Assembly (NCBI GenBank): GCA_027605045.1
Contig: JAQFWX010000062.1
Coordinates: 62,001 to 126,000, forward strand
Length of the DNA: 64,000 nucleotides
DNA from: Phallus indusiatus
Taxonomy: Eukaryota > Basidiomycota > Agaricomycetes > Phallales > Phallaceae
Direction of reading: 5' to 3'
Made by a program: the position numbers and the translations under genes. Below are positions 27,962 to 57,808 of the stretch, in pieces. Within the stretch, counting starts at the first letter, position 1; every line of letters begins with the position of its first letter. The notes under the pieces are model-generated. The model was not told where the DNA came from. It made no database searches and saw only the letters and a program-made list of their open reading frames with translations.

Positions 27962-28159
27962 TATCATATTGGTTATTTATTGCATTACAAGATCTTCAGC
28001 TACTATATATCACTGTCAGTGTCATGAAGACCACGACAGCTAATTTCAAGGTATTGCTAGGATGTATTTCTATCTATCTATCATTTATAGCACAGGCGTA
28101 TGTAAATACAACTCGACTCGGCATCTGGAAAGAGATTAAACTGCATTCGAACCACAAAC

Positions 28160-28503
28160 ATGGCTAAGAAAAAGGCCCAAGCATTTCCGGCAGCATCCAA
28201 GCAAGTCGACCCTTTAAATCAAAATCTCACTGACAGATCTCAAAACATCGCAATGAAATACCGTCCATAGAGTATGTACCCAAGCCCGAAACTGGCAACA
28301 TCTGGCCGTTCGAAGTCTCACAGCCATTGACCCCAAAGTCACCCAGGGATAAGAAGTGGGGTGGCGCAGGGAGGTACCTATCAAAATATTATAGGAGAAC
28401 AGCCTGGAACAAACACGGAACAGATCTTCCAGTAGAAGAACAGCCAGGATTGCCGCATTATACGGATTCCACGAGAGCGTGTTTACCAAATATTGCAGTC
28501 TAA
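28160..28503 (+). CDS. Unrecognised small basic protein
   Basis: The start ATG is followed by MAKKKAQAFPAASKQ. A second frame from 28237 runs open to TAA at 28501-28503: ISKHRNEIPSIEYVPKPETG, then WPFEVSQPLTPK, DKKWGGAGRYLSKYYRR and a Pro/His tail. Joining them needs a 32 bp intron (GTCGAC to CAG), very short for this genome, or another start. About 104 residues, rich in Lys, Arg, Pro and Trp. No domain is recognised. It could be a nucleic-acid-binding or ribosomal accessory protein, but that is a guess. Confidence 0.35.
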
Positions 28504-29449
28504 TTTACCTCCGGCACTGAACCGCTCCTAACTAGTTTCGGATCCACGGGTGCTAGTCCCAACAAAAAAATTTTTTTTTTCTCTTTTCTTCTCTTCTGAT
28601 AAGAATATTCTCTTGGATAAAACCCCCAGTTTGAACTAGCTTGTACTTCCATATATTTTATACGCCACTACACATACATTCGGACAAATATGTTTTAATT
28701 GCTCAGAATCCAAGTCAAATTTTTGGCTAATAAGCATCGGGTCGATCAGGCACAAGGGTGCTTTATTGTGAGACGGAGATATGCACTCCCGAAATCGTTC
28801 AATCGCTCTTGCAACTCCTCTCATGGAGTAAAGCCGATGCCGGGCTTGTCTCACCTCAAAACCTCCTGTTTGAGAAAACACGAAGTTGAACACGAGGGAG
28901 AGTAAACAGTATATCCGGAGAAAAAAATAATATTTTCTTGAGAAAAGCTCTGTAGGTAATACAAGTATGAGGAAAAGGTTCCAGTATCGGATAAAAATCA
29001 ACGATATATCAGAAAATGTAGATAGTAGCAGGCAGAGAATACTTATGCGATACAAATAAAAAGCAGAACGAAAAAAACGAAGGAGAAAATAGGGAATAAA
29101 GTAAGGGGGCGCACAGTTTTCGTTTTTTTTTATCAGTGCGGGTTGTGAGAGATATGACCATAGCGTAAATCTACCAACGGAGAGGAACCAGTAGGGCAAG
29201 TCCTTGCATTAGCTCGGGTCGTGCAGCCGGACTTTTAAGCAAGGGCGGGGGTGTATAGAAGAGAGAGGATCATTGTCCTGGGTGACTCTACCACCCATGC
29301 ATGTAAGCCATGTGGGATTAATGATATCACCGGAACTGCTAGGCTTCTCCCCTAGTAGCCCCAACATAACCGAGGATCCTCCTTCCGTGTCCAAATTCCG
29401 TTCCGTATACAAATAAACAATAAAATAGAACCAAGTGTATCAATGCCGA
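28504..29449. other. 3' flank of Yap1-like gene, no gene called
   Basis: A 187-codon minus-strand frame (29199-28636) is open, but its sequence is a low-complexity Phe/Leu/Ile/Tyr mix from T-rich DNA without family features. The region is more likely 3' UTR and spacer. Confidence 0.5.
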
Positions 29450-30862
29450 CTAGTGTAGAGCGGTGCATGTTGCTTTGCGTTGCATATCTATGCAAAGTTG
29501 ATCAATCATACATGGCTGACAAAAGTTTCCTCGTCAGGCTTCCAGAAATTTAGCATCGGCGGAGTATAAGAATGCTCATACCTCCTGCGTAACATGCTTT
29601 TGCGCTAGTGCCGCCTGAAATTGTGCATCGTAAGGCGAAATCGGACTGGTATTCTTCTGGGCGGCGGCGGCGGTAGTTATATCATTCGAATTGAGAGAAG
29701 TCAATCCATTAAATTGACCAAAATTATCGACCAAATTCATGTCGTCCCAGCCTCCAAAGCCCCCAAATGAAGCAAAAGCATTCATTGACTCCGTCGGATC
29801 TCGATAAGACATGAACATGGGATTCGAAGCGACTGTCGTAAATGGTCCTCCAAACAAGTCAAATTCGACATCAGCCATATTAGTTGTGCTATTATCGGCA
29901 AGTGTTGATGGCGCGGTGGATGAGTCGAACGTCGAGTACTGAGAGCTGAAGCTCGGTTGCGAGGTGACATTAATTTGACTAGAAGCATTCGAAGTCGCGT
30001 CGGGTCGACTACGGCTAGGGCCGGGTTCAGGGAGGGGAAAGGAAGTTGAGGAAGAAGCGGCATTCGGCATCCCCGAGCCATTCGGTACAGACATTGGAAA
30101 AGAACTCTGTCTCAGCATAGTGTTTTCGGCTTGTAGACGTTTGAGCATATCACGCAAATTCTCATTCTCCATAGCTTGAGTCTCGCTTTTGGCTTCTAGC
30201 TGTGCTACTCTGTCTTCCAACTGCACCGGGGAAGAAAGTAGAGGGAGAAGGGAAAAGATGAGGGGTACGAATCAGGTTGGCGCCTGGGCACTTTTGATTG
30301 GCAGATAAAATACTCACGTCTTTGACATGCTTCTCTTTCCTTTCTCTAAAAGCACGTTGCGCCGCGCGGTTTTGTTCTTTGCGCTTGAGCAGCTTCGATT
30401 CGTCCTGATGGTGAGCCAACCGTTGAGTATGTCCCAGGTTGAGGGAGAATAAATGCAGAAATGTGCACATACATGACCTCTCTCCCCTCCCGACTTTCTT
30501 CTCGAAGGTGCTACTGACCTCTTAACCTTGCTATCTTGTGTTCCCAAAGATTTGGAAATGGATTGTTGTTCGTCAACCTCAATATTATCGGTAGACTCTC
30601 TTCGTTTGTGGTTCGAGTCCCCGTTCAATTTCGAGTCGTTGAGAAGTGAAACACCATCCTCAGAGGGACTGGGACTCGAGTCCGAATACGGAGGTGATAC
30701 GGAGCTGGCTGTGGCACCATTGGCAATCGTACTATCCAGCGAGTCCTTCGGCTTGGGAGCAGACTGGGGAGGATAAGAATCCTGGAAGATAGGAATGAGA
30801 GGAGAATTATCGAGTGAAGCAAATGGGTCTACAATCGCGGACTCCCAGCCAAATGATGCCAT
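29450..30862 (-). CDS. AP-1/Yap1-like bZIP transcription factor
   Basis: The protein begins MASFGWESAIVDPFASLDNS, with a Ser/Pro-rich acidic region. The basic region KRKEQNRAAQRAFRERKEKH carries the NxxAQxxFR signature of the Pap1/Yap1 subclass and is followed by a leucine zipper (LEDRVAQLEAKSETQAMENE). A Gln/Asn/Ser-rich activation region follows. The C-terminus depends on a last intron (donor at 29580, acceptor at about 29515). It yields EPCMIDQLCIDMQRKATC, a cysteine-rich domain with the spacing of the Yap1/Pap1 redox switch that masks a nuclear export signal. Without that intron the protein stops 21 residues earlier and loses all C-terminal cysteines. The family drives oxidative-stress gene expression. 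Confidence 0.88.
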
Positions 30863-32256
30863 TGCAGCTAGCTGGGCGGGTGGTTAATGGAGGAAGGGGG
30901 AAGGGGAGGAAATAGAAAAGATGACGAGCAAAGGACACGAATCCCTTTTAAGGGCCAGTGAATGCAGCCGTGATCTGCTGGGTAGTGGTGAGAAACGAAA
31001 AGTTGGGGCCGAAATCTCAATATTCAGGCTCCGGCCAAAATTGCCTCCTTCCTTTTCCAGCTGAATTTCGAGCACCCGTGTATATTACGGCGCACGTGAG
31101 GCGCGTGACAAGAGCGTTACGTCTTCTTGAGACCTAATAGATGTCCCAGGCTCACGGATTCAAGATCCGTACCTCAACGGCCAGCGTCAATCGACCAGGC
31201 TTCCCGCCAATGTCTCGGACTTTTGGTCGGAGTCTCGGTGCGCTCAACTTAGCGCCACCTAGCGCTGTAAGACCGGTTGAAAGCGTGACATAGTCTTCTC
31301 TGCCGTGTGCATGCTGCCGCACGAGGCCGCGTATACGTATGCGTTTGTTCTTGACGCAATCATCTCTGTCTCGTGTATCTCGTGTCCCATAAAGCTAAAA
31401 TAAAAACATATGTCGGCCGATGAAAATAATGAGAAATGACTCCCTAGATATTACATGGATCAATTTCCGATTTCCCTCTCTTTTTCACCTTCCCGTCCAC
31501 CAAAATGAGACAACTTCTACATCGCACGATCAGACCCTGATTAGCAGGATCACATTCGCGTGCGTCTTAGACAGATTGTTCTTACGGCGTGTCTCTCCAA
31601 TCGCTATCGTTCGTCGGTCTTTTTTTTCCTATTCTGAACAGTGGCCAATCATTGGGTTAATCTCGAAAATCCTGAACAACTCGGCAGAAGGAATCGGAGT
31701 CCGATAGGTTTGCTTCCATGGACAGCCTATAAGAGGCTATAAAGTGCCTAGAGACGCTCTTCAATTCATGACTGCTTTCGTGTGTAGGTTATGACGCCAT
31801 TCACCGACTGGTTGTACGAGTATCTCAGTAATAATAGTACACGTTCTATCGCACCCCGATACAAGTGTTGAGTGTCACTATCAGCTTTCACAGATTACCC
31901 ACAACGAACAATGAGATATTCCCCGAAATTAGTAGGAAACCTGGCGCAATTGAAAAGCCATACGCTTCGTTTCTTTCAGGAATATCAAATCTTCTACTAA
32001 ATAACTAATATATCTCATGATTTTTCTATGACCAGTCAATAAACGGGCACTGGCACATCAACAACTGCGGAACAGTCTCTCTGTTTGAATCACTCGACGT
32101 CGCTTGCAACACTAGTGTTTGGAAGCGCATCGCCCCATTTTAATCCACAATACACTTTTTCATTTCACCAGCGTAAAGTACATAAACATACAATCCGATT
32201 TGTCCGAGTCGCCTAATTTCTGGTGATTTCCCCCTTCTGAATTTCAAGATCCAGCA
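30863..32256. other. Long upstream region of Yap1-like gene
   Basis: 1.4 kb without a supported gene. It contains pyrimidine-rich stretches just upstream of the start, as is common in long 5' leaders of regulatory genes. No tRNA or repeat is recognised. Confidence 0.4.
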
Positions 32257-33510
32257 TCAACGCACTCTCTGCCCAATGTCACTTCTGTCCCTTATGTAAA
32301 GAAAATAGAGAAAACTTTCTGTTAAATTTATGCTGACTAAATATCTCCCGTGTTCGTTGTAAAGTAGACTTACTTCGTCAAGGAAGCCAACAAATTTTTC
32401 GCGCATTGATTTAGCTCATCTGAAACAGTAAGATCGTTGCCATCAATGCAATTATATCAGGTATAGATATATACCTTCCCGAATCTAGTGAGAACCTGTA
32501 GATTTAGGACTTGGTTAATAAACATGACCTCATTTATCGACTGATCCGAATCGTCTTCTCACCTGGGCCTGAAGGCTTTCCGAAATCTCCTTGACTTGGA
32601 CCATCATGTTGTTGGGACTGGGACTGTCCTGGTTTTGACCCGGCGGGTTGGGGGGGTTGTCCATTGGTCGATCCTGTTGATGAATAGGAGAAGTTATCAG
32701 TAAAATTATGCATATTGCTATCGGAAACCACTGGCAGTGCGCCTTGTAGTGTATCGTCAACTTGAAATAGTATTTACCTCCATTTTGCGGCTTATTAGCT
32801 AAGTCATGTTTGTTAGAATAAAACACAAATAGGTCAAACGAGAAATTTTACCTGTGAATTTGAAATTGAAGTCATTGTTGTGATCGTCACCGGAATTTTC
32901 GTTGGATGAGCCTAAGTTCAAGCCCAGGCCAAAGGGCCCATCCGAGTCAACGAAGGGAAAAAAGTCTAAAAACAATTATTCAGTAGCTCAATGAATGAAA
33001 CGGAAAATTCTGCTAGAAATCAAGTATTGAGTGAAAACAGCTCTCGAAAGCAGCACGGCGAAAGCTCACACTTCGTTTGAATTGTCTAGCCAAACTGGCT
33101 AATCCTTGTCGGGAAGCGGTAAATTTGCTGAATATCCCTCCATTACTTGGAGTCTCAAGAGAAGATACCAATCCGGATGTGAAACTATCTGGTGTGGTAG
33201 CGTCATCTACTGGCACAGTCGTCCCTGTCGTAGAGTTTCCCAGTGTCCCGTCTGTCAAAGGGGCAGTAGTAGGAACAGTAGAGGCAGTAGTAGAGACAGT
33301 AATAGTAATGACAGGAACAGTAGAGACAGTAGTAGGAGTCGCAGTAGCGGACTCCGTGCTGTTGAGGGTTATCAACGTACTCAGGCTGTTTTCGATTTCG
33401 GGAAGTAAATCTAGTTGTCTAGCAATCAACGGTCTCGCGGAGACAGTCGGCACCTGCAGTAAAGGAAGGAGAACCTGAAGCAGAAGAGAAGCTGAAAGAA
33501 TGAAGTGCAT
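32257..33510 (-). CDS. Ser/Thr-rich secreted protein, function unknown
   Basis: The first exon encodes a signal peptide (MHFILSASLLLQVLLPLLQV) ending at TVSA or SARP, then a long Thr/Ser/Val-rich tract with simple TVSTVPV-like repeats likely to be O-glycosylated. Further exons give DFFPFVDSDGPFGLGLNLG, an Asn/Asp-rich segment, a Gln/Pro/Ser-rich segment (GQSQSQQHDGPSQGDFGKPS) and a short end with one Cys (ELNQCAKNLLASLTK). The stop is taken as TGA at 32259-32257. The last three exons are small and their order is inferred from splice signals. No enzyme domain is present. It resembles fungal wall-associated or small secreted mucin-like proteins. Confidence 0.5.
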
Positions 33511-34685
33511 ATCTAAAGTTCAAGCTGAAAAAACAATAAAAAGAAAAGAAAAGCGACTTTGGAAAGTATGCAATCAGGACCGGCCTGTGAATGAAAATTG
33601 GAAAAGTGATTGAAGGGTGGCTGAAAATCACTACGACAGTGTTAATGAATGTAATCAGCGACTTTATAGTGAAGCATTGCAGTTGGCATCTTGAGATTAT
33701 ACAGCAGTTGAATGATATGCATGTATTTCCGTAGTAATCTCTTCACCATCTTCCCCTGTACAAGATCTAGAACGGATCCAAATAAGAATCAATACTCAGG
33801 ACTGTGGCAGGCTTTACGACGCAAATGAGATCAGGTGCATATATGTACCATGATTGTGTGTGTTAAAATCAGTGATAGAAGTGGCAGAGGTTTTTCATAA
33901 CAACGAGTGGAGTTGATTTACAATCTCACTTGGACCTGAAGGTGTCATGATAGAACTCGAAAATCAAGTCGAGTTGTCAATAAATCCTTCAAGCTTGCAT
34001 TTTTCGAGTTGTTGGTTTTCGTTTGAGGGGTTTCGGGTTTATTATCTGATAAACCAAATTGAAATTACCGTGAATGTGATACCGGCGGTCGAAGTACAAA
34101 TTTAAATCAAGTGGCAGTGCAAACCCTAGTTCGATCTGTTGCGTGCTTCACACGGCGGCTGTCGAACCATAATAGTAAACAGTAACCGTAGCCATCAATC
34201 TACATATTCTCCATTGTTACCTAGCAAAGGAGAACAGAAAAACAAATCACTGCGCCTAGGTGACATGATGGTTCTACTGCGGCGTCATATCGCCTTAACT
34301 GGGAAAGTCTGTTGATTTCCAGCCAGAAATGTGCTTTACAGTCTGTTTCGGCTCACTGGCAGAACCTTGTTTACCCTGTACCTTGGCGAAACAGATGAAA
34401 AAGTTTGATTAAACGGCTTTTAAATGACTCGAGATGTGCGCGCTTAAACGTCTCGCATGACACCCGATGTATACGGTGCCGGTGGGTACGTGTACTCATA
34501 GTCTCGGCCGATCGGGGATGTCTATCGACGTCTATCATCCGCGATGCAAGGATTCCAAGAGAATAAATGTGATCTTAGAGGCGGTTGCAAGACTAGACTC
34601 TGTTCGATGATCCGTAGACAAAGCGTTTTCAGATGGTCGCCTAATACGGCTGTACTACCAATTCTATTTATTCCAGCCAATCAAA
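33511..34685. other. Spacer between host block and repeat island
   Basis: No gene or RNA is supported. A TATA-like TTTATAG near 33,662 may belong to the secreted-protein gene. This spacer marks the change from compact host genes to nested repeats. Confidence 0.4.
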
Positions 34686-36183
34686 TCCACTGTTACGGTG
34701 CCCGAGGAGTATCAGGTCACTTTTTTTTGACCGAGCAAATTTTCACTGTGCAATTGCAAGGCATCTCGGCGCCGCGGTTTGGCGCCTGGCCACCTTTTTA
34801 CTATCAGTATTAATCACTGCAAAAATAATTGGTATGTCGGATGATGAGGTCGGGGACGAGTCAGACACAGTCTCAAATGGCCCGGGAGCGGGGTCTGTCA
34901 GTGGCCACAATCATAATCCGACAGGTCGAAATCAACACGTAAATTGTCGTGAGTGAGTATAAACATAATTCTCATGCTATTCCGACCATTTACCTACTCT
35001 TTTACAGCGCGCCGCGGTGACGAAACAGTCACCAACGCATTGATTGAATATCACAGGCGAAACATCACAAATCGGAAACAGATAAGCGAACTTTTGAAAA
35101 CGGAACATGGAATAATTATGAGGTTTGATGCTGTGTCGAAAGGTTGGCAGTATTGACAGTCTTTTTTAGTGAGGCTACAGTTGCACGACGTCGGAAACAG
35201 CTCCATCTCCATGGAAGCATGATAACTACTCGGAGTCTTTCAGATACTCAGAAAAGACAGCTTGTTCTGGATCAGATGGCCAATGATCCCAGCCGTCGAC
35301 AAGGACCTCGGGCCATAAAGCAGACAATTGCGAATGAGACAGGTATTCATCTGACAAGGTAGGGTTCTATGTTTCCGGCAACTTAACTTCTCATTCTATT
35401 TACATCTCAAGAGACTATATCGAATCAGAGATGCGGAAACATGAACCAGATGGCTTTCTGCTACGCCAGCCTTCTAGCAAGAAGATTTGTCGGACACCAC
35501 TCGGACTATCATGCCATATAACAAACGACACGCATCACTCACTCACCAAGTTCATATCCAGTGTTCGAGCAACTACGAAATAAGAGCAGTATTAATTATG
35601 TATTTATACTATAAAACAGCTTCCTCAAGTCAAGGTGTCAGACTCGTTTTTAGAGCAAAGGAATTGATGTTTTTCTTAGTTCAAAGTTTTATTTCGTGGG
35701 TGTCATTTTATCCTTATAGTGGCACTCTTATCAACGTTACTGAAAGATGTTGTTGATGCAGATACCTTATACGATATTTCCTCGCCGAACGTTTCAATAG
35801 AAACTGAAGCTTTATTTTAATTCTTGATCCATGTATGATAGTAACTATATTTTGCTTGATTAAAATCAAACGGACGATGGCTCAATTGGGCCCTATTGAT
35901 CTGACGGCGGTCTGACCGAACCTGATTGACGACCGTCAGAACTCCGTCAGGTTAGGCCAGGTCGCCAGGCGTCGTCAGGCTCGATCGAGCTTTGGGGATT
36001 TTTGTGACAAACCTCATGAGATACGGCAAGCAGCTTTTGTGTTTCTTTTCGATATACGTCGTCATTCAACGCGACCCTGACCACGTGATATACGTGTAAG
36101 CTGTCAACCGACGCGCGGGCCTAACAAATTGCTACTCAGAAAGACAAAAGTGACCTGATACTCCTCGGGCACCGTAACTGTGG
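34686..36183 (+). mobile_element. TIR-bounded DNA transposon remnant with truncated integrase-type transposase
   Basis: Inverted repeats of about 38 bp bound the element: left 34686-34724 and right 36146-36183, sharing GTTACGGTGCCCGAGGAGTA and the next 13 bases. Only one base differs near the outer end (T/A after TCCAC). About 1.5 kb lies between, holding one truncated transposase gene and 560 bp of noncoding DNA. A target duplication is not clear. The size and missing catalytic domain make it a non-autonomous derivative. Confidence 0.75.
34834..35583 (+). pseudogene. Truncated transposase, N-terminal DNA-binding part of an rve-integrase-type protein
   Basis: Four exons join in phase: start ATG at 34834, introns at about 34949-35006, 35121-35167 and 35360-35411, stop at 35581-35583. 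The product has an acidic head (MSDDEVGDESDTVSNG), then a helical region (IEYHRRNITNRKQISELLKT), then SEATVARRRKQLHLHG. It continues with QKRQLVLDQMANDPSRRQGP and ends after SKKICRTPLG in unrelated sequence. Proteins with this N-terminus in Agaricomycetes continue into an integrase catalytic core, which is absent here. The frame is otherwise intact, so the deletion may be recent or the short protein may be kept as a DNA-binding product. Confidence 0.65.
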
Positions 36184-36191
36184 AAAAAATC

Positions 36192-36388
36192 GCCACTGAA
36201 TGCCACTGATACTCAGTGGTGATCCAGTGGGTAGACCCACTGAATATCAGTGGTTTGTCAGTGGTCTGACCACTGAATTTCAGTGGTTTTTCCGCCATTT
36301 CAGTGGTAAAAACCACTGAAATTCAGTGGGATTCAGTGGTATTCTCCCACTGAATTTCAGTGGGGCTCAGTGGTATTCTTCCACTGAC
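36192..36388. repeat. Cluster of CCACTGA / TCAGTGG inverted motifs
   Basis: Within about 200 bp there are seven CCACTGA and about ten TCAGTGG (or near) heptamers, many paired as palindromes such as CCACTGAATTTCAGTGG at 36270-36286. The cluster begins 9 bp after the TIR of the adjacent transposon remnant. It could be the subterminal repeat block of another DNA transposon. Confidence 0.85.
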
Positions 36389-37648
36389 AGTTAAGATAAG
36401 TGATAAGTGATAAGTCTGGTGGTTTCTCGGCCCGTGCATCTATTCTGTCGTTTGCTCTCCTTGTTTGTTATTATATAATTTATGTTTTATTTGTAATAAA
36501 ATGTACATATGTATATATACAAAAAAACCGTGCTAATAATGCTAACGACTAATTGACTATTACTAAACCGCACCCCGGTATCTCCTGTCGCTCTCACTCA
36601 GCCTCATCCTTAATCCCAAGTCCTACAAACTGCGCTGCGCAAGTAGCAAAATCTGTACCTGCTGTTACTTGTAGGTGTATGATTGGGAGTTAACCCACTC
36701 ACCGGTGTGAAGAATGGCAGCGCGTCACTGGTTGTGGACGAGGCGAAAGGCACGGACGCGGTGTGGATGACAGCGGGATGGTGGTAATGGCATGGACGGT
36801 GACGCGAATGGTGGTGTGAATGGTGGTGTGGATGGTGGTGTGGATGGCGGTATGGATGGCGACGTGAATGGCGGCGTGGATGGCGGTGTGGATGACGGCG
36901 GTGAGATGGTGGAAGGAGGGATGAGACTTTGATGAGGCGAGAAAAAAAAGTAAAGTCTTTAAAAACGATGCACGCGCATACAGTCGATTTTGAACTCCGA
37001 TTTAAACACAGCGAGTTACGCGTCGCGATTCTGAAGCCCGCACAACGAGCTTCGTCAGCGGCAAAAAAAATCGGCAGCGGTGTTTGAATACTCAGACTGC
37101 CGGGATACAGCCGATGCGAAGTTCAGGCACATTGCGAAGCTTCAGGCACATTACGTTTTCAATAAGAAGAACAGAATCCTGCTCCTGTAAATCGGTCTGA
37201 GTTACAATTTCATAACTCATCGGATACCCTCCAGTGCAATCCCTCGCAATCCTCCCCCTCCACATCCACATACCATTATATGTTCACAGGACATACGTTG
37301 TTATTGAGGGGAGTGTTCATCCATAGGAGGACTCTGCTGTGGCTTGTGAGGATTGAAGTCGAGAAGTAGTTTTGTTAAGTATTGTTCGATGATCGATCAA
37401 TTGGTAAGTGTTCGTTGCAAGGACATGATGCACGATAACCCACTTACATTAGTTTGAAAAGGCCTCTTGGTTTCTTTTACAAGCAATAATGGAACTTGAG
37501 TTAAGTCCCGGTCATGTGCAAACAGTACAATCTTCGAGCTTATTGTCCCCATTTTCTCGTCGCACTGCTTCAAGTGTCTTCCAACCCGTATCCTCCAGCC
37601 TGTATTACTTTCAGTGCCTCCCATACAACTTCATCTCATCTAACTTGC
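36389..37648. other. Gene-poor region beside the repeat cluster
   Basis: No protein of a known family is seen. The region contains AT-rich DNA with AATAAA-like signals near 36,490, the minisatellite described separately, and short open frames (for example 37489-37827) without family features. Confidence 0.4.
36781..36905. repeat. 12-bp minisatellite (GGYGGYGTGGAT-like units)
   Basis: About ten tandem, slightly varied 12 bp units of the type GGTGGTGTGGAT / GGCGACGTGAAT are visible. The period of 12 keeps a Gly/Asp/Asn/Val-like reading frame, but no gene is supported around it. Confidence 0.8.
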
Positions 37649-38091
37649 CATGGATAATACACAATCTCCAATGTTTGATGGCAACCGTGAGTATTGTTGA
37701 AGTATCGCTGTTATCGCTGTCTTCTTGTATTGAATGGGTGTTTGATAGTAGCCTTATATATTCCGCCTCATCCCACATTACCAGTGGTACAGCGTGGGGA
37801 AATGTCTCTGTGAGTATTCATGTTTGACTTATTTTGCTTTCTTATGGCTTACACGCTACAGGCCGATTTAAAGCATTTAGACATCGACAAAACACAGGCT
37901 GACGCTATTGACTCCATCTACAAAAACGACCAACACTTTCACAAATTATATACCTCTTTGCCGACGGAACAAGCGGAGGCGTGTAAGGTTTTGGGAGCTA
38001 ATGGGTTGGATGTGGAGCAGTTGTGTGATAAAGGGAAGAAGGATTTGGGAGCTGGCTGGAGTAGGCGATGGAGCCGGAAACAAGGAAAACC
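37649..38091 (+). CDS. Possible small protein cut by the 38,092 transposon
   Basis: A possible gene starts MDNTQSPMFDGN at 37649. After one or two introns it continues WGNVSADLKHLDIDKTQADA, then IDSIYKNDQHFHKLYTSLPT and a Lys/Gly/Arg-rich stretch. The frame is still open where the hairpin-repeat transposon begins at 38092, so the gene is probably interrupted. A 120 bp first intron is needed, which weakens the model. Function unknown. Confidence 0.3.
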
Positions 38092-38410
38092 TGTAACGGA
38101 TCCACCGCTATGTGGTGGATTGAGTATATGCCACTTAGGCATATGCAGAGGGCTTCGCCCTCTGCACTAGTTACTATTATTAGCTTTAATAATAGAGGCG
38201 CTTAACGCCTCTGGCTCGCCGTGACGCGGCGAGCCATTATGTAATAACTGTATATTAGTAGTAGCTACGCGCGTGCTGATTCAGCACGCGCAACTTGTTT
38301 TACACCATAAAATATACAGCACTTTGGTCTGTTATACGTGGTGTGAAACTACAGCGTGATACAATTTGCGTACCGTCCGCGGTACGCTATAAAAAGTAAC
38401 GAGACGTTAC
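38092..38410 (+). repeat. Left terminal inverted repeat made of consecutive hairpins
   Basis: Consecutive perfect palindromes (stem coordinates): 38100-06/38114-20, 38126-32/38138-44, 38144-53/38157-66, 38174-82/38187-95, 38194-200/38206-12, 38213-21/38227-35, 38269-79/38281-91, 38368-75/38380-87 and 38396-401/38405-10. Stems are 6-11 bp and loops 1-7 nt. Together they cover about half of the repeat. Confidence 0.9.
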
Positions 38411-39586
38411 AAAACCACTCAAAGAGCGTGTTTTATTGCAATGGTATTCCATGTGTATACAGTCCACTATTAATAGAAACAAATTGCTACTTCCTTTAGC
38501 CAGTGTGGGTCGAATTCCGAAGCCAAAAAATTCAAGGATGATATGACTAGAGCTCGATGCGGCCTTAAAGTCAACGCCAAAGAGTGGAATCGTAAAATGG
38601 CCTACAACTTTACCGGATGCTTAGCACACATAGATATAACATATTGTCCGGATTCTTCAAACATCATTCATATAGTGGGAATCCTCAAGCATAATACTGC
38701 CTGCGAAGAACAAGGAATGCAACGTCTACCCCCAATACCCCTTCACCCACATGTTTTGCGCGTAGCTTTGAAACAGCTTGATAGTGGTGCCAGGTAATTA
38801 TAAATATATTCATGATCATTTGGTGCTAATTTATTCTAGAATATCAGATATACAAGCGCATAATCGATCTCTTTGCAATTCCAAGTTGTATGATGGTCAG
38901 GCTGACTTAGATGAGACAACATCCAATGTCCGCTACCTCCTACTACCTCAAGATTCTTGCCGGCTTTATCGAACTCATGCATGGCTGAAAGGTGTTGATC
39001 TTCTCCAGCCTCCAGAGCAAAATGTCAACAACTGGCTCAATGCAAAGAGTCCACTTCATAAACCTGAGATTGCGCAGGCCATCTTTCATTATAACCCTCG
39101 GACTGAGCTATCAGACTGCTTCACAGCATGCATACACACCGAGGAGATGAAAGCAGCTGCTTGGAAGTATGCCCATAATCGTCAACTAATACTGGATGGC
39201 ACATTTGGGATTTGCGACCGTCGGATTCTGCTATTCATTGGTATGGCGTTAGACGAAAAAAACCGGGGAATTCCAATCATTTTTTTCTTATTTTCTGCGC
39301 CCAGCGGAAATCGTGCCACACATGCCGGATATGATACAGAGATTCTTACTGAGCTACTTAATGCATGGAAAACTGCGCTGGGAAAAGGATCCGATGGCTC
39401 GTGGTTTCAACCTAAGACAGTAATTACGGACACAGACACCAAGGAAAGAGGAGCACTGGTGGCAGTTTGGCCAGCTATCCATTTAATGTTGTGTAAATTC
39501 CACACTCGTATGGCATGGGCCAATAAGCGCAAAACACTTCTTAAAGTGGGAAAGCAGCTGGATTTCTTCAAGCAGCAAGTAGTGAC

Positions 39587-39938
39587 TGTCACGGTACGCT
39601 AGCGCCTTTTCCGATTATTCGATTTCTTCGATTTCTTTCGGTTTCATTTCGTGTTACGATTTCCTCCATTTCCCGTACTTTGCCGTTTCCATTAGTTCCA
39701 TCGTTTTCTCGATTTTTCGATCTCTTCGATTTTCCTCGATTTCTGTCTGTATCTCCTCGGATCCCATGGGGATCAGTCGAGCGCTTCGTATCCTGTACTT
39801 ATATGCGTTTTCCCTAGAGGGGGATACCTAAGCTTGTTCTCTTAGGTTTTCCCTCCTCTAGGTGAGTAGTTAGTCGCTGCCCCTCAATAGATCTTAGGTT
39901 TTCCCTCCTCTAGGTGTGTGCCCTGAGTCGCCCTAACA
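39587..39938 (+). repeat. 5' LTR of family A
   Basis: Starts TGTCACGGTACGCTAGCG and ends CGCCCTAACA. The upstream part is rich in TTCGATTTC repeats. A TATA-like TTATATG (39799-39805) lies about 25-30 bp before AAGCTTGTTCT. Downstream a 24 bp unit beginning CTTAGGTTTTCCCTCC is repeated twice. Confidence 0.95.
39830..39840 (+). promoter_or_regulatory. Predicted transcript start / self-primer sequence
   Basis: AAGCTTGTTCT here is the exact complement of the primer-binding site just after the LTR. It lies 25-31 bp downstream of the TATA-like box, where RNA synthesis would begin. In Tf1-type elements the first 11 nt of the RNA fold back to prime reverse transcription. Confidence 0.7.
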
Positions 39939-39940
39939 GT

Positions 39941-39951
39941 AGAACAAGCTT
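39941..39951 (+). promoter_or_regulatory. Primer-binding site complementary to the LTR
   Basis: AGAACAAGCTT starts 2 nt after the 5' LTR end, the normal PBS position. It pairs over all 11 nt with 39830-39840 rather than with a recognised tRNA 3' end. The minus-strand family B copy has the same arrangement (61393-61403 with 61504-61514). Confidence 0.75.
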
Positions 39952-40082
39952 CTACCTTCGGACCGGTCGTTTCTATTGTCGTTTTCTTTCGGAAACTCTT
40001 TGTCAGCATTGTCTCAGACGTTCCCGACGCTTCTCGCCCATAAAACGACCCCTCCGTCCTTCGTTCTTCGATTTCTTTCGTC

Positions 40083-41327
40083 ATGGATCTAGAAGAGAGT
40101 GACCCTACTACTGAAAGTCGCCTCTCTGCGATTGAACAAAGAATAGAAGAGCTCGTAACTCATCTCGACCGACTCTTCACCCCTCAGGCTCCTGCTGCCG
40201 ATCCCTCTAATCCGACAAACCCCAATCCCAGAGCCTCGGCTCCAAATCCCCAAAACGAGACGAGATCGTCTCGAAACACTCGCCCTGCTGTACCTCTCGC
40301 CTATGATGGGGATCGCAAAAACGGCCGTACCTTCTGGAACTCTGTCGATCTTTACATGAGCGTATGTGGCGGCGATTTCCCGAATCTCAGTACCAAAATC
40401 GTTTGGGTACTTTCTTACATGAATAGTGGGCGTGCTGGTGCCTTCGCCGAACTTATTCAGGCCCAGTACAATCGAGGGTTGGTTCCTTATGAGACCTGGG
40501 AAGACTTCCGACAGAAGTTTCACTCTGAATTCTTCCCGGTAACCGAGGCTGAAGATTCGCTGAACCTCCTTCTTTCAGGACGTTATGCTCAAGGAGGTCG
40601 AAACGTAGATGATTACACTGACGCCTTTCGCATTATCGTGGATCGCGCGGGTTTCACGGTTCATGATGGTCTTGCGTTAACTACCTACTACCGACAGGGC
40701 TTAGATCGAGAAATCGCCAGTAAGGTTGGAACGATGCAGAATCGACCCGATTATAGCGATTACGAAGGCTGGGTTCAAGCCGCTCGTCTTTTCGATCAAG
40801 CTCGTCGTACCAACGATGCTTTCAATGCCACCCAACGACGAGTCGTTCCCGGTAATTCGATTTCAACCCCTCTTACGTCGATTCCGATATCCCGAACTCG
40901 ACCCAGCCCTTTCCCGGTCTATCAACGTACAGCTGGACCCCCTATCTACTCCCCACCTCCTTTTCCCCCGCCTCGCGCATCGATTCCTACCACCATCTCT
41001 CCCCCTGTACGACCATCGGTTTCTACTCCAGTTAATGTCGTACCTCCAATCCGAAATGATGCCATGGAGGTTGACGCTGCTCGTCGCCGCATACAGACTG
41101 AGACAGCCCGGTGCTTCCGATGTGGGCAGTTAGGCCATCTCGTTAAGGACTGCCCACGCGCGTTTGATGTTCGATTCATGCAAGCCGATGAAATCGACGA
41201 AATTCTCGAACAACGCTTCACTCAACAAGATGTGCTGGAAACGCAGAATCGTGCTGAGATTGCTGTCGAAGAAAATGAGATCGCGATCACTTCGACTAGA
41301 GAGGATTTTCAGAATGGCAGCGAGTAA
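40083..41327 (+). CDS. Gag polyprotein of family A
   Basis: An intact 414-residue frame. The retrotransposon gag capsid region spans about residues 70-250 (GDRKNGRTFWNSVDLYMSVC, YETWEDFRQKFHSEFFP). A Pro-rich linker follows, then one CCHC zinc knuckle (CFRCGQLGHLVKDC, about residues 344-357). The stop (41325-41327) lies just before the pol frame, which is in the -1 frame relative to gag, so Pol is probably made by -1 frameshifting or an alternative route. A homologous gag is present in the minus-strand copy at 61,240-59,100. Confidence 0.95.
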   Translation: MDLEESDPTTESRLSAIEQRIEELVTHLDRLFTPQAPAADPSNPTNPNPRASAPNPQNETRSSRNTRPAVPLAYDGDRKNGRTFWNSVDLYMSVCGGDFPNLSTKIVWVLSYMNSGRAGAFAELIQAQYNRGLVPYETWEDFRQKFHSEFFPVTEAEDSLNLLLSGRYAQGGRNVDDYTDAFRIIVDRAGFTVHDGLALTTYYRQGLDREIASKVGTMQNRPDYSDYEGWVQAARLFDQARRTNDAFNATQRRVVPGNSISTPLTSIPISRTRPSPFPVYQRTAGPPIYSPPPFPPPRASIPTTISPPVRPSVSTPVNVVPPIRNDAMEVDAARRRIQTETARCFRCGQLGHLVKDCPRAFDVRFMQADEIDEILEQRFTQQDVLETQNRAEIAVEENEIAITSTREDFQNGSE

Positions 41328-41368
41328 GGGATGCACCCTCACTGCCGACATCAAATAGATTCGATGTA

Positions 41369-44300
41369 TTGTACATAGACGACAAGTGCAATGAGACTTC
41401 TGATTCGAATTCTATTGATTCTGATGCATCTATTCCTCCCTCAAATCCTCCGATCCCTGCTCCTCGTCGCCTTTCGATTGGAAAACGCAAGCGGATTCCC
41501 CACGAATACCGTCTGAACGCCACTGCCGGTACTCAGAAACTCGAAATCGATGTAGAACTCCAGAGCACCGACACTGGCGATCTTATTCATTCAAAAGCGA
41601 TGCTTGACACCGGTGCCAGTGGGATGTTCCTTGACCAAGACTTTGTCGAGAAAAATCGGCTCCCGAAGATTCGATTACCGAAACCGATTCCTGTTTTCAA
41701 TGTTGATGGTACTCCCAATCAAGCAGGAAACATCACGCACGTGGTGGACTTGGTGATGCGATATCAGACACATTCCGAACGTGTCATGTTTGCCGTCACT
41801 GCCCTCGGCAAGTACCCAGTGCTGCTTGGATTACCCTGGTTCAAGGCTCATAACCCGGTGATTGACTACTCAACTGGTGAGGTTGAGCTGACCCGGTGTA
41901 ATCCCGAATGTCGATCTTGTAGACCGCCTCCTGTCGAAAAGAAAGGCCCAAAACGTTTCCTACGTTCAGTTCGAGCAATCCCTCCTGTCACCCTTGACGA
42001 AACCGAATCCACAGATCCAGATATGCCAGATCTCGTGAATGTGGAGGATGAGTTTCACCCAGAAGAGGGAGATCGACTGTTCGCGGTTTCTCTTAATTCA
42101 GAACCCCTGGACAGTTGCCGCATCAGAGCAACTGAAACCATCTCACAGCGATTGGCTCAGGCACATGCGAATAACACAAGGGGTACACTCAAATCTGGAT
42201 TTCGAGAAATCGTCCCCGAAATGTTCCACGATTTCGAAGACGTTTTCGCGAAAGAGTCTTTCGATTCATTGCCACCTTCGAAGAAGTGGGATCATGCGAT
42301 AGAGCTCCTACCTGATTCGGATCCCAAGTTTTGCAAGGTGTACCCCCTTTCGCCTAATGAACAGAAGGAGCTCGATGCGTTTCTGGAAGAGAATCTTCGT
42401 TCTGGTCGAATCCGCCCCTCGAAATCGCCCATGGCTTCCCCGGTTTTCTTTATCAAGAAGAAAGACGGCTCTCTACGACTTATTCAAGACTATCGGGCTC
42501 TCAACGCGATGACCATCAAAAATCGATACCCGTTACCCCTAATTCCCGAACTTGTCAACAAATTAAGGGGGGCGAAGTACTTCACGAAACTCGATGTTAG
42601 ATGGGGATACAACAATGTTCGCATCAAAGAGGGCGACGAGTGGAAAGCAGCATTTCGCACGAATCGAGGACTGTTCGAACCCTTGGTCATGTTCTTTGGT
42701 TTGACTAACAGTCCAGCAACCTTCCAGACGATGATGAACGAGATTTTCGAAGACATGATCACGGAAGGGGTTGTGGCTGTTTATATCGACGATATCCTGA
42801 TCTACACGAGAACGAAAGAAGAACACGATCACATCACACATCGTGTCTTAGAACGGCTAAGGGAGCATAAACTCTATCTCAAAGCCGAGAAGTGTGAATT
42901 CTGTCGTACTAAGATCGAGTATTTAGGTCTGGTCATCTCCGAGAACACTGTCGAAATGGATCCCGCGAAGGTGTCGGGTGTCAGAGATTGGCCAGTCCCG
43001 AAAAATGTCACCGAGGTGCAGTCGTTTTTGGGTTTTGCAAACTTCTATCGTCGATTTATCAAGGACTTCTCACTGATCGCTGTCCCCTTATTCGGTCTCA
43101 CTAAGAAAGAAGCCCCGTTTGTCTGGTCCGACATTTGTCAACAAGCTTTCGATTCTCTGAAATCGGCAATGACCTCTGCCCCGGTTCTTGCGATTCCTGA
43201 TCCATCGAAGCCCTATCGGGTAGAAGCTGACAGTTCTGATTTCGCGACAGGTGCCGTCTTGTCTCAACCTTCTCTCGAGGACAACAAATGGCATCCAGTG
43301 GCTTTCTTCTCGAAGGCTTTGAGCCCGGTGGAGCGAAATTACGAAATCCACGATAAAGAGATGTTAGCTATCATTCGAGCATTAGAAGAGTGGCGACATT
43401 TCTTGGAAGGTGCGACTCATCCGATTGACATTCGCACGGATCACAAAAACCTAGAGTACTTCATGACGGCTCGTAATCTAAATCGCAGGCAAGCTCGTTG
43501 GTCGGTTTATCTCGCGCGCTTCGATTTCACCTTGCGGCATATACCTGGTAAATCGATGGGTAAGCCTGACGGCCTTTCGCGTCGTGCCGATCATGGCTCG
43601 GGAAAGCTGGACAATCGAGATATCACTCTAATCCGACCCGAAATGTTTGCCGTCAACGCCATGCAAACATTCCGCCTTAGAGGGGAGGAGGACGAGTTCC
43701 TAGGCCAGATACGGAAAGCGAACAGAGAAGGCAAACGAGAAGATAGCGTTTCGAAAGCCATCGAATCCCTTAAGGCGATAGGTGGGAGATCAGTTCACAC
43801 CAGTGAATGGGCTGAAGATCAAGACGTCATTTACTACCGAGGGAAGATCTATGTTCCCGAAGTAGACGATCTACGGCGAGAAATCGTTCAACGACACCAT
43901 GACACCAAACTCGCTGGTCACCCAGGTCGATTTAAAACATTGGAACTGGTATCGCGAACCTTTTGGTGGCCGGGGATTTCTCGATATGTACAGCGGTATG
44001 TAGAGGCTTGCGACACTTGTATGCGGACGAAACCTTCTCGACATGCTCCATATGGCGAACTACAACCTACCGAAACTCCAAATCGACCTTGGCAATTCAT
44101 ATCAGTCGATTTCATTGTCGAACTCCCCGAATCGAATGGTTATGACGCAATCCTCTCTGTAGTAGACTCGTTGACGAAACGGGTTCATTTCGTCCCAACA
44201 TTTACTACTGTTGACGCTTCTGGCCTTGCATCTCTCTACCTCCAACACGTCTGGAAGTTGCATGGACTACCCGAGAAGATCATCTCAGATCGCGGACCTC

Positions 44301-45196
44301 AGTTCTCGTCTCGTTTTACCCAGGAACTCTCTCGATTACTTGGCATTCGGCTTGCGCGCTCTACTGCATACCACCCCCAGACCGATGGTCAGACAGAACG
44401 AGCGAACGCTGAAGTAGAGCAGTATCTTCGTATCTTCACCTCTGAGCGTCAAGACGACTGGGATCGATTGCTACCGATGGCCGAGTTCGCATATAACAAT
44501 CATGTTCATTCGGCTACCCAAGCGACACCTTTCGAACTCGATACTGGTCGCCATCCTCGAATGGGTTTCGAACCGCGTTCAACAGAATCGAAGATCGAAT
44601 CGGTTAATGACTTCAAGAATAGGATGTCTCATTCTTGGGAGGAAGCTCGCGCTGCGATTCTTAAGGCTAAGGACGACATGGCTAAGTACTACGATCGTAA
44701 ACATTTACCGGCTCCTAACTACAAATCTGGAGATAAGGTTTATCTAGATGCTAGCGACATCAAAACCACTCGTCCATCTGCCAAATTATCGCATCGCTTT
44801 CTAGGCCCATTTCCTATCGCGACCAAAGTCGGGACCCGCTCATATTGACTCGTTCTACCGAAATCGATGTCTCGAATTCACCCCGTGTTCCACGTCAGTA
44901 AGTTGAAACCAATGAGACCGGACAGTATACCAGGTCGTCGTTCTAAACCTCCTCCACCCCCGGAGATTAGCGATGATGGTGAACATTATGTAGTTGAAGA
45001 AATATTGGACAGTCGCGTTTTCCGCCGGCGACTGGAGTTCAAGGTTCGCTGGGAGGGCTATGGTCCAGAGCACGACCAATGGATTCCCGAGAAAGATGTC
45101 GCAGCACACGATCTCGTACAAGATTTCTATCGATCTCATCCGAATGCACCCAGAATGATTGGCGGTCTTATTTTCCTTCCGCGTCCTAATAGCTGA
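41369..45196 (+). pseudogene. Pol polyprotein of family A with one internal stop
   Basis: Domains in order: aspartic protease (AMLDTGASGMFLDQ), reverse transcriptase with YIDDILIYT near 42,781, RNase H (VEADSSDFATGAVLSQ), integrase HHCC finger (ending EACDTC), and a D-D-E core (ISVDFIVELP, ISDRGPQFSS, GQTERANAE). A GPF module (FLGPFPI) and a chromodomain (LEFKVRWEGYGPEHDQWIPE, about 45,034-45,093) follow. A TGA at 44846-44848 breaks the frame between GPF module and chromodomain. The same frame continues on both sides, so this is a point nonsense change, probably CGA to TGA, not a frameshift. A polypurine tract (45,223-45,238) precedes the 3' LTR. Confidence 0.95.
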
Positions 45197-45238
45197 ATCT
45201 CAGGCGTCGGGTCGCCGCCTTGTTGAAGGGGGGGGTGG

Positions 45239-45590
45239 TGTCACGGTACGCTAGCGCCTTTTCCGATTATTCGATTTCTTCGATTTCTTTCGGTTTCATT
45301 TCATGTTACGATTTCCTCCATTTCCCGTACTTTGCCGTTTCCATTAGTTCCATCGTTTTCTCGATTTTTCGATCTCTTCGATTTTCCTCGATTTCTGTCT
45401 GTATCTCCTCGGATCCCATGGGGATCAGTCGAGCGCTTCGTATCCTGTACTTATATGCGTTTTCCCTAGAGGGGGATACCTAAGCTTGTTCTCTTAGGTT
45501 TTCCCTCCTCTAGGTGAGTAGTTAGTCGCTGCCCCTCAATAGATCTTAGGTTTTCCCTCCTCTAGGTGTGTGCCCTGAGTCGCCCTAACA
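45239..45590 (+). repeat. 3' LTR of family A
   Basis: 352 bp, the same length and nearly the same sequence as the 5' LTR. It starts right after a G-rich polypurine tract and ends CCCTAACA before the GTGAC duplication. Confidence 0.95.
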
Positions 45591-47631
45591 GTGACACGCT
45601 TGTGAACACTTGATATGGCGTAATAATTTTTATTTCCCTTCTTTCAGACCTTTACATACTTATACCATTCTATAGCTTGATTACCAGCATGGATTACAAA
45701 TTAGCGCAAAATATCATTCAGGCTGAACGGAACTACCTAATAATGATGAAAACCGATTTAAATACTACAGCTGCAGCCAACCAGGGGTTGGCATATCTAG
45801 ACTATCTCAATGCTACGTGGATGACTGAAGAGCTATGGAAAAGCTGGTCGCATTCTGGGAGAATCAAAGCTTCTCATATCTTGGGCATTCCTATTCAAAG
45901 TGTAGCATCAACAACCAATCACTTGGAATCCTTTAACTCGGTGCTGAAGAAGAAATATATTAGAGGTCAGGAGCATAGTGGGAAAAGACTGCGGTTCGAC
46001 CTATTGATTTTCCTGGTGGTCACTCAAATTCTTCCAGCAATTTTCGAAAAGCGAAAGGTGGAGACTTCCTATTATGACTGGCTTGCAAATAGATTTGCAA
46101 AATATACAAATGGAGTTCTGCTTCAAAAACAGTCACAGCTCGCACAACCAGTGTCCAAGAAATTTGAATTTAAATCAGCTTCTCAAGACGAAGTTATTCA
46201 CATACTCAAATACAAACGCATCGGACAATATAACTGGCTCGAACCTTATCAGCTTACTGCTACTTGCGCTAGTAGTGTTGAGGATATGCGACTTATTAAC
46301 CATAAAAGGTATACTATGATCATTAATTGTTATGGTTGGGCTAGATGCTCGTGTCCCGCATTTGACAAGTTCGGTTACGCGTGCAAACATCTTTGGGCTT
46401 TCAGAGCGGTGATTGACCAAATGCAAACACCTTACCACTTCATGTTTCCAAATTCATTTGAAGACGCGCAGAAAATATATTCAACTCTTTTCGTCATGGA
46501 CAACAGGCCCGGTCCAAGCTCCGAAGGAAGCTCCACAGATACACCCACCCCCGAAGTACCAAAAATGATTAACGAGTCGTCGTGTCTTCCTCTTCTAAAT
46601 CCACAGCTGAATACCACTGCCGATTTCACTGATATAATGGCAACAGTGGTATCTACTCTATCAGACAATACCAGCGGCGACATCGAGGATAACTCAGAAG
46701 ATGACTCAGATTGTGAAACAATGTTTCAGTCAGATGTGGAAATAATGCCTGAAGAGAGTGTTGATGCGGTATTTAACTTCTTTTGACTTCAAAATTTCAC
46801 CCTGATATTTTTCATTCAGATGACTGCAGAGTCAAGCAATGCAGAGTCCAAAGCCGCGATTAACCATCAGCGTAATGCACGTTTATCTCACGATATACAG
46901 GTCGTATTACCCAAATTACATGGCATCTATACGATTCTCAAAGATTTAGGATCAGAAAATCTTTCAAATAACTCGCAGCTACAAGAATTTTTGGCCTTGA
47001 CAGCTAATATATCAACAGTGTGTCATGGAGGCACACTCGCAACAACACTTGTTGAGGCTGGACCTGTTAATAGTAGTAGCATAAGTATAATTCATTTTAT
47101 CTAAATATTTGAACTTATATGGTGCTATGACGCATAGAGCTCTGGATCGAACATAAAGAATAGCCAACGTGCATGCAAACATACGGTTGATACAACACTT
47201 CGGCCACCATCTCCCGAACATGCACAGAAACGCAAAAAGTCAACCAGTATCTTTTAAGTAATTTCTTGCGCTTAGAATACAATCTATTGCTTGTGTATTG
47301 AAATTCATCTAAATACATTGTTATTTCTGCCAAATCAAATGCAAGCTCAACAAGCCATTTGTGTCATGCCGGCACCTACCAAGTTATGGACATTCACATC
47401 CGACATGGATATAGTGTTTAATGTGGATACAGTTTCAACATCAGATGCACGCGCATAACTTTAAAGACAGATGTATATTTCCTACTCTACTCTTGGTTGT
47501 TTTAAGTACAATTACTATGAGACAAACATCTGTAAGGTGTAACGGTTCCGCTATGAGCAGCGGACTACTATTAACCATAGTACATATTCGTATATACATA
47601 CAATTGTATGCAGACGATCATCGTCTGCACA

Positions 47632-47863
47632 AGTACCTAGGGGTTATGGGTCGATCGTTCAGATTAGCATCCCAGATCCAGGCGCTTAGTGGGATAGACC
47701 CCGGTCACGGCTATAATTTTAATATAATTTTAAATAATATTTTTTATATTTATATATATTAAAGAAGGGTATCGCTAAGATAAAAAACACAGCAGCGCCG
47801 AGATTCGAACGAATGGACCAAAGAAAAAGACATTATAGACGCATGACCTCTCAGCCATACAGC
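47632..47863 (-). mobile_element. tRNA-derived SINE, copy 1
   Basis: Read on the minus strand, the 5' head (about 47863-47792) looks like a type II tRNA: an A box TGGCTGAGAGG and a B box GTTCGAATCTC, but the anticodon stem does not pair, so it is not a working tRNA. An AT-rich linker follows, then a core of about 80 bp (47713-47632) shared with copy 2 at 54,319-54,399, including GGATCTGGGATG and AATCTGAACGATCGA. Confidence 0.7.
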
Positions 47864-47933
47864 ACACACAGGCTGAACAACCGTAAGGCTATATGACGGC
47901 TAGTTACTAAATTACTAAGTAAAAAAAAAAACT

Positions 47934-48252
47934 GTAACGCTTTGTTACTTTTTATAGTGTACCGCGTACGGTACACAAGTTTTATCACGCTGTAGTCCTC
48001 ACACCAATATAACAGACCAAGGGTGCTGTATTATTATGGTGTAAAAACAAAATGCGCGTGCTGAATCAGCACGCGCGTAACTACTACTAATGTACAGTTA
48101 TTACATAATGGCTCGCCGCGTCACGGCGAGCCAGAGGCGTTAAGCGCCTCTATTATTAGAAGTACTAATAGTAATTACTGCAGAGGGCGAAGCCCTCTGC
48201 ATATGCCCAAGTGGCATATACTCAATCCACCGCATACGGTGGATCCGTTACA
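47934..48252 (-). repeat. Right terminal inverted repeat made of consecutive hairpins
   Basis: This is the inverted partner of 38092-38410 with the same hairpins in reverse order. The hairpin at about 47,957-47,976 has stem GTGTACCG/CGGTACAC where the left copy has GCGTACCG/CGGTACGC, a paired change that keeps base pairing. The outermost stem is extended by one pair compared with the left copy. Confidence 0.9.
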
Positions 48253-48307
48253 AAAACGGCTTCAAGTCCGGTGTAGTAATGAGTGTATCTATTTTAAAAT
48301 GCTATCT

Positions 48308-56712: not shown

Positions 56713-57079
56713 GGTAGCATATATGCGGTGAGCGTCGGGCCTGTTGGGTAGCATTGATATCGAGAAGAGTCGATCGCCTTCTTCAATCTCAGACTCGACG
56801 TCAACCAAGTCTGGTATCTCAGGATCACTGGCCTCGGTGTCATCGAGTTCTGGCAAGGGCGCGCGTCGGATCTGTTGGAACGCACGTTTAGAGAGCTTAC
56901 CCGCTGGCCAACGCGGTGCACAAGACCGACAGCTGGGGCTGCAGCGCATGAATTCTACGTGTCCAGCTGCATAGTCTATGACAGGATTATGAGCTTTAAA
57001 CCACGGCAGTCCAAACAAGACGGGGTACTTGAGCGAGGTAACGGCAAACAGGGTGCGTTCGGAGTGATTGTCATGATCC

Positions 57080-57808
57080 GATTCATGACATCACTTCCGG
57101 TAACGTTACGTAATCCATATCCGATTCTGTTATCTCCGTTATCTTATCACGCTTACATCACTCATGATAAGACCTTCGCGTTCAGTCATCTTTACCAACC
57201 TCGCAACTCGTATAGAGACGTACCCGTCTCCTTTAACTCCTGGAACACCCGCAGAAAGCCCTTTCTAGAATATTCCACGCACGTTCCAGTTATGAGATCA
57301 CAGATGACGAACGTAGGTCCATGTATGCACAGCACTTATCCCTGCATGCCTCATGGTCATCACATGAGACATCATACCCTGCATATATTGATATTACTTA
57401 CGAATCTCACGACATGTTTACATTTCTCTAGTTCGGAATTTATTTCGAACTGAGCTAGAATTATTTATCTGACGTGTATATAAACCCTAGCATACACGTA
57501 GATAGTTCTTCAGACTTAATATCGAACGTAGTTCGATATCTCTATAAACTCTCCTTTCCTATTCTCCTCATCATTGCTCGTCGAGATCGTTGCCCGAGAA
57601 CTACGACGACGGATTCCATTCGTCGTTGTCGAGAGCTGCGTCTTGAAGCTCTCTTCATTCTCCTCCAGCTTGACCTCATCCAGCACGAGATACAACTCGC
57701 GGCACTTGAGGCTCGGAACGCAATCATCAAGAAAGCACTATTGTTCTATTCAGCGACTAAAATACATTACAGTATCTATAGCCGTTCCCGGATATCGGTA
57801 CTTGACAG
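57080..57808. mobile_element. 729 bp insertion with TGATCC duplication, type unknown
   Basis: It interrupts the pol frame between HFRDH and DNHSER. TGATCC is present at both borders (57074-57079, 57809-57814). The ends are not TG...CA and no clear inverted repeat is seen. It contains a TATATAAA box (about 57,476) and a 118-codon frame (57474-57827) without family features. Confidence 0.55.

Follow-up and report, generated by a model that had tools for sequence, protein, structure and literature searches.

Why should two 320-bp rows of small palindromes stand some 10 kb apart, in inverted orientation, in the genome of the basidiomycete Phallus indusiatus? The question is raised by a 64,000-nt stretch of contig JAQFWX010000062.1 (positions 62,001 to 126,000 of the forward strand, assembly GCA_027605045.1), here called the window, in which an earlier sequence-only reading had taken the two arrays for the terminal inverted repeats (TIRs) of one DNA transposon. 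The answer is that both are solo long terminal repeats (LTRs) of a Ty3/gypsy chromovirus, placed in opposite orientation by chance, and that this retrotransposon, LTR and coding interior alike, is one closely packed chain of short hairpins with Watson-Crick stems, mostly of 6-9 bp and about 20 per kb. Why such a chain exists is the harder part of the question.

The identity of the arrays follows from their borders. The left one, at 38092..38411 on the plus strand (320 bp, TGTAACGG...ACGTTACA), is flanked by the target duplication AAACC at 38087-38091 and 38412-38416; the right one, at 47933..48252 on the minus strand, belongs to another subfamily of the same family (91% identical) and is flanked by AAAAC at 47928-47932 and 48253-48257. 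Both have the family's LTR termini, TGTAACG...CGTTACA. An empty site for the right LTR is found at C170:87461-87468, within a paralogous sequence 89-90% identical, where the flanks are directly joined with the target bases alone between them. The outer flanks of the supposed 10-kb unit, AAGGAAAACC and AAAACGGCTT, have no duplication in common. The two separate target duplications, together with the empty site, thus refute a 10-kb DNA transposon with hairpin-array TIRs. The 320-bp stretches do lie at the outer borders that had been proposed for it, with arms 90% (214 nt) and 88% (64 nt) complementary, yet each is bounded by a duplication of its own, and genome-wide such arrays form direct pairs around a retrotransposon. 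Inverted solo LTRs can, in other words, pass for DNA transposon termini.

A 32-base piece of the LTR, allowing up to 3 mismatches, occurs 140 times in the genome (67 Mb, 206 contigs) against no occurrence of the reversed control pattern, and many of the copies form same-orientation pairs about 8.9-9.3 kb apart. The nine full copies retrieved are 9178-9595 bp long, with matching 5-bp duplications in eight, LTRs that start with TG and end with CA, LTR pairs that differ at 0-2 positions (or by one indel), and interiors that differ by 0.0-3.8%. Among 91 LTR places examined there are 32 3' LTRs, 26 5' LTRs, 23 solo LTRs with a duplication, 5 solo-like ones without and 5 that are partial or unclear, so that 23 of the 28 solo or solo-like LTRs carry the 5-bp duplication. 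The interior codes for a gag-like protein with a zinc knuckle, protease, reverse transcriptase (RT), RNase H, integrase, SH3_Tf2-1 and a chromodomain. The order protease, RT, RNase H, integrase was read from one copy, L034, whose interrupted open reading frames (ORFs) were searched individually; the chromodomain adjoins SH3_Tf2-1 at the integrase end (PF00385, E 4.2e-6, above the cut-off). It is these domains, with the direct LTR pairs and their 5-bp duplications, that make the element a Ty3/gypsy chromovirus. In domain order and chromodomain it resembles the chromoviruses of other agaricomycetes, its RT region sharing 54-64% identity with the 120 proteins listed out of 560 found, of which those named come from Phanerochaete, Trametes and Mycena; what would set it apart is the hairpin density of its DNA, these relatives being represented here by their proteins. 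A purine tract, AAGGGGAGGA, lies directly before the 3' LTR and is clear. The bases after the 5' LTR, TCTTTTTTAACACC, do not start with TGG, and as regards self-priming they hold three exact 9-nt complements to the LTR and none longer. The hairpins are a heritable feature of a mobile element and not unrelated simple repeats.

Some further features of individual copies may be recorded here. Between the chromodomain and the 3' LTR, L034 has two hairpin-rich ORFs on the minus strand, of 373 aa (L034:845-1966) and 154 aa (2332-2796), for which no Pfam match was found. The interiors of L034 and L035 each carry one insert of about 400 bp (CTGTTAGGG...CCTGACA), at different places, and these inserts are probably solo LTRs related to that of the other Ty3 element described below. 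In L037 a solo hairpin LTR is inserted in the interior of its own family.

How unusual is the hairpin density? If a hairpin is taken as a perfect stem of 6 bp or more closed by a loop of 1-20 nt, the 8552-nt interior of copy L033 contains 173 of them, or 20.2 per kb, and 28.9% of its bases lie in stems; the interior of L036 has 19.1 per kb, and dinucleotide shuffles of the element give 3.0-3.5 per kb. Another Ty3 element, nested between the two arrays at 39587..45590 on the plus strand and used as a low-hairpin control, has 4.7 per kb (shuffled 4.2), and the RNA phage MS2, run through the same script, 8.1 per kb (shuffled 3.4). The density is independent of protein and codon usage: when codons were shuffled with both held fixed, the gag-pol ORF had 66 hairpins against 11.8 +/- 2.8 and three further ORFs had 28 against 5.4, 24 against 6.4 and 15 against 3.2. 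The pol gene of the nested element, at 15 against 13.8, shows that it is not found in another Ty3 element at the same place. Folding of 200-nt windows gives the same picture, with z below -2 in 42 of 42 sense windows of L033 (mean -5.40) and of L036 (-5.06), in 39 of 42 antisense windows of each (-4.44 and -4.96), and in 16 of 17 windows of MS2 (mean -4.09), compared with 2 of 26 in the nested element (-0.37) and 3 of 39 at positions 5001-13000 of the window (+0.09). The stems of L033 number 67, 41, 45, 16, 3 and 1 at 6, 7, 8, 9, 10 and 12 bp; the modal loop is 4 nt, loops of 0-2 nt are fewer than those of 3-6 nt, and neighbouring hairpins are separated by a median of 15.5 nt. In the sequence examined, at least 6 hairpins occur in 13 of 485 windows of 500 nt that lack sequence of this family (family 1).

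Two other places in the window are rich in palindromes. Positions 57069-57734, with 6-7 hairpins per 500 nt, are 88.7% identical to an 867-nt insertion that the family-1 copy of contig C195 carries in its gag region. Positions 36081-36400 hold a palindrome array from CCACTGAA/TTCAGTGG, with 6 stems and 102 nt paired in 320 nt, which is also present on C195 (L054, about 1361-1840); its sequence is unrelated to the LTRs, and it perhaps represents the subterminal repeats of a DNA transposon.

Within the LTR the same structure can be followed across many copies. The left copy has 7 perfect stems of at least 6 bp (122 nt paired) and the right copy 6 (106 nt), far above 300 dinucleotide shuffles of the left copy (mean 0.8 stems and 10.6 nt, maximum 3 stems and 42 nt), which bears out the hairpin array described from the sequence alone. 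The nine hairpins in fixed order of that description are a rough fit, the predicted fold also containing longer, imperfect stems at alignment columns 76-88/168-180 and 209-220/256-267. Single-strand folding z is -11.2 sense and -10.6 antisense for the left copy and -13.2 and -10.0 for the right, against -4.1 for 300 nt of LTR from the nested element. For comparison of copies, 85 of the 91 places examined among the roughly 140 in the genome were kept in the alignment (at least 280 bp, both ends) and the 76 distinct sequences counted. In a common fold 98.7% of the cells are standard pairs, and the sense fold is the stronger in 70 of the 76, by a mean of 7.8 kcal/mol, of which shuffles attribute about 5 kcal/mol to base composition. 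An Rfam search near the left LTR gave nothing above the gathering score and one chance-level match outside the LTR.

The case that pairing itself is conserved in the LTR is mixed. Rare variants are mostly CpG decay and fall freely in stems, so that one-sided stem substitutions, which had been named as a sign against the hairpins, are indeed common in individual copies, as expected in dead ones; common, lineage-level variants lie mostly outside stems. The ratio of common to private variants is 4:43 in stems and 24:17 in unpaired columns (P 5e-7, with the structure derived from the same copies and columns 207-269 left out), and with stems taken from single copies P is 2e-5 to 1e-3, the bias partly remaining. 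The covariation check run on the aligned copies gave a weak signal dominated by one pair: both sides have changed in 5 pairs, where shuffles give 2.9 (5 is reached in 52 of 500), a structure slid by -2 columns gives 6, and 22 of the 27 cells with both-side changes come from one pair. Column pair 79/177 is G-C in 44 copies, A-U in 22 and unpaired in 10, and in one subfamily each side of stem 209-220/256-267 has gained one base (read by eye). The paired change by which the two ends had been said to differ, GCGTACCG/CGGTACGC versus GTGTACCG/CGGTACAC, is real but a single event and not recurrent covariation: among the 76 it is confined to the left copy of the window and its counterpart on C195, which are one insertion in two alleles. 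CpG deamination was rejected as its source, since the majority state has no CpG; the left copy is divergent, and the polarity is therefore not fixed.

What, then, could hold such a chain together? By analogy with structured RNA genomes, the likeliest cause is selection that favours closely spaced, short local stems in the single-stranded forms of the element, a proposal to which belief and doubt attach in about equal measure. The forms under selection would be the genomic RNA, the minus-strand complementary DNA (cDNA) or both; RNA structure, one of the roles suggested in the sequence-only reading, is thus a live candidate. Short local stems could compact and protect the strand and hinder the formation of long sense-antisense duplexes, while being short enough for the ribosome and the reverse transcriptase to melt, and template switching at existing hairpins might supply new stems and paired changes. 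A further step, which we take only tentatively, is that there is a second, structural code over the whole element, in which hairpins up to about 9 bp are selected and stems turn over by way of synonymous change and template switching. The closest parallel is the genome-scale ordered RNA structure (GORS) of RNA viruses and single-stranded RNA phages such as MS2, where structure likewise runs across coding sequence beyond the needs of protein and base composition; as in GORS, folding exceeds shuffled controls over the whole element. The differences are that the hairpin element is an LTR retrotransposon, that its density of perfect hairpins is 2.5 times that of MS2, and that its pairing is nearly pure Watson-Crick with no clear strand bias. 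A scan of IMG/VR for the hairpin pattern gave 0 matches, and no description of a hairpin-built LTR retrotransposon was found in the open-access literature searched, most subscription papers lying outside the search. Were the proposal true, a cellular mobile element would be denser in hairpins than the structured RNA phage of the textbooks, its bases specifying proteins and structure at once, and would offer a system for asking why the RNA or cDNA of retroelements is structured, be it for protection, packaging or avoidance of small-RNA silencing.

Evidence that the interior hairpins are maintained comes from three branches polarised with L036 as outgroup. Substitution rates are 0.77% in stems, 1.36% in loops and 0.94% at other sites, stems being slower than loops (P 0.013). 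Hairpins with stems of at least 6 bp were lost 44 times against 64.9 +/- 6.2 under random placement (1 of 100 runs as low), those of at least 7 bp 30 times against 40.3 (2 of 100), and 15 hairpins were gained against 10.3 +/- 3.3 (10 of 100 runs as high). In each of the ten copy pairs, which share events, both-side Watson-Crick changes number 1-3 where 0.06-0.55 would be expected by chance. In gag columns 2050-2900, where L033 and L036 show 99 differences in 841 positions (12% divergence), hairpins number 13 in L033 and 14 in L036, of which 7 and 5 respectively are unchanged in the other copy, and the split of the differences among codon phases is 65:24:10. Such a pattern agrees with stems being replaced while density stays constant and the protein is constrained, but it comes from one segment, for which decay from a richer ancestor is also possible. 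A plain test of divergence in stems versus outside and a random-placement test were set aside as biased, because the stem is chosen for its perfection in the reference.

A number of observations weigh against selection on pairing. Stems are not significantly slower than sequence outside hairpins (0.77% against 0.94%, P 0.28), the deficit of losses fades for stems of at least 8 bp (20 against 24.5, with 14 of 100 random runs equally low), the branches examined show more losses than gains (44 against 15), and three both-side changes that are not Watson-Crick occur, in two copy pairs with L036 as reference. In addition, two full elements, on contigs C141 (L081/L082) and C153 (L091/L092), lack hairpin P6 through a deletion shared by both their LTRs and have retrotransposed, which means that the element can do without P6, at least in trans. 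The evidence on strand is mixed. Single-mismatch stems read on the sense strand show more A.C than G.T, 19 against 5 in L033 (P 0.007) and 16 against 6 in L036 (P 0.05), with 3 against 7 in MS2; the excess is the opposite of the G.U preference expected under selection on the sense RNA, and single changes between copies show no G.U preference either. Sense folding is stronger than antisense in L033 (-5.40 against -4.44, Wilcoxon P 0.0009) and barely so in L036 (-5.06 against -4.96). Mismatch counts therefore suggest the minus strand or neither strand, and folding energy leans towards the sense strand in L033.

The best-surviving alternative, though a doubtful one, is a mutational generator, in which template switching by the reverse transcriptase or during replication rewrites one arm of a hairpin from the other and useless perfect hairpins pile up. 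Published work (PMC8794818) traces perfect hairpins, paired changes and loop inversions to template switching; loop inversions and paired changes are what the element has in common with that work, which, in the part of its text considered here, treats RNA genes and does not mention transposable elements. That the process acts on the LTR hairpins is shown by comparing the LTR pairs of 20 single insertions, whose duplications were found by script to match in 17 cases and by a separate check in one more. Away from indels these pairs differ by 28 transitions and 6 transversions, and exact loop inversions make up 5 of the 6 transversions, in 3 of the 20 pairs (P3, TTC/GAA; P6 centre, T/A and C/G); across LTR copies inverted loop states are found at P3, P6, P8 and P10. 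Such inversions imply either that LTR hairpins form in a single-stranded or extruded DNA state or that the reverse transcriptase turned round on them. Several P6 deletions are likewise located at hairpins, and the nearly complete Watson-Crick pairing, with no sense-RNA G.U bias, suits a generator as well. The C153 LTR pair also differs by an inverted P3 loop.

Template switching may supply stems everywhere, but it meets several difficulties as the whole explanation. Twelve copy comparisons of the interior revealed no loop inversion, the template-switch criterion applies to 2 of 61 listed substitution clusters, some of which recur between branches, and stems end at about 9 bp. The neighbouring Ty3 element, likewise reverse transcribed, shows no such chain, and in the diverged gag segment most changes belong to a single codon phase, unlike block copying; template switching alone explains neither. 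With more than 140 LTR copies and many dated insertions, the family would suit the question of selection versus template switching.

An improbable third account gives the hairpins a role at the DNA level, where cruciforms or hairpins in single-stranded DNA would serve integration, replication or chromatin. Watson-Crick symmetry, the loop inversions in genomic copies and single-mismatch stems that favour minus-strand wobble pairs would agree with it; the hairpins, however, are not confined to the ends, loops of 0-2 nt are fewer than those of 3-6 nt, and stems of 6-9 bp with a modal loop of 4 make poor cruciforms. It is very improbable that a protein of the host or of the element binds the LTR palindromes and that the interior hairpins have a separate cause: LTR stems are conserved in sequence and not in pairing alone, but hairpin sequences differ from one another, the hairpins of a second LTR family sharing the same ends are different and weaker, and the density of the interior equals that of the LTR. 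As for the 10-kb DNA transposon, the transposase gene between two inverted copies earns it virtually no credence beside the separate 5-bp duplications, the missing outer one, the empty site, the direct pairs around a retrotransposon and the six paralogs of that gene, none of which has a hairpin LTR within 20 kb among the LTR places listed.

The sequence between the two solo LTRs has its own history. It holds a MULE-type transposase gene unrelated to the LTRs, whose 5' part (PF10551) is at 38495..39586 on the plus strand, the homology of the six 68% identical paralogs beginning at 38495, and whose 3' part, with a SWIM zinc finger (PF04434), is at 45614..46786 on the same strand. The gene is interrupted by the nested Ty3 element, with LTR starts at 39587 and 45239 and target duplication GTGAC. 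The MULE gene thus lies between two hairpin arrays that are not its TIRs, and since it is split by another Ty3 element and its paralogs lack listed hairpin LTRs, the supposed 10-kb unit is a chance assembly. Contig C195 is the counterpart of window positions 27971-47537, 97-99.8% identical, with the left LTR present and the MULE gene without the nested Ty3 element (an empty site); the segment concerned, C195:423314-436900, seems to be either the region's second haplotype or a large duplicate of it. ARAGORN found no tRNA gene near the right LTR or elsewhere in the window.

The alignment with C195 ends exactly at 47538, where the first 103 bp of an LTR of the second family begin (47538..47640, plus strand; the full LTR, 264 bp, is at L020:497-760). 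This family has the same LTR ends and first 14 internal bases as the hairpin family, and its LTR folds with z of -2.2 sense and -3.75 antisense. Among 40 places listed it has many 99% identical copies, several of them direct pairs about 8.83 kb apart.

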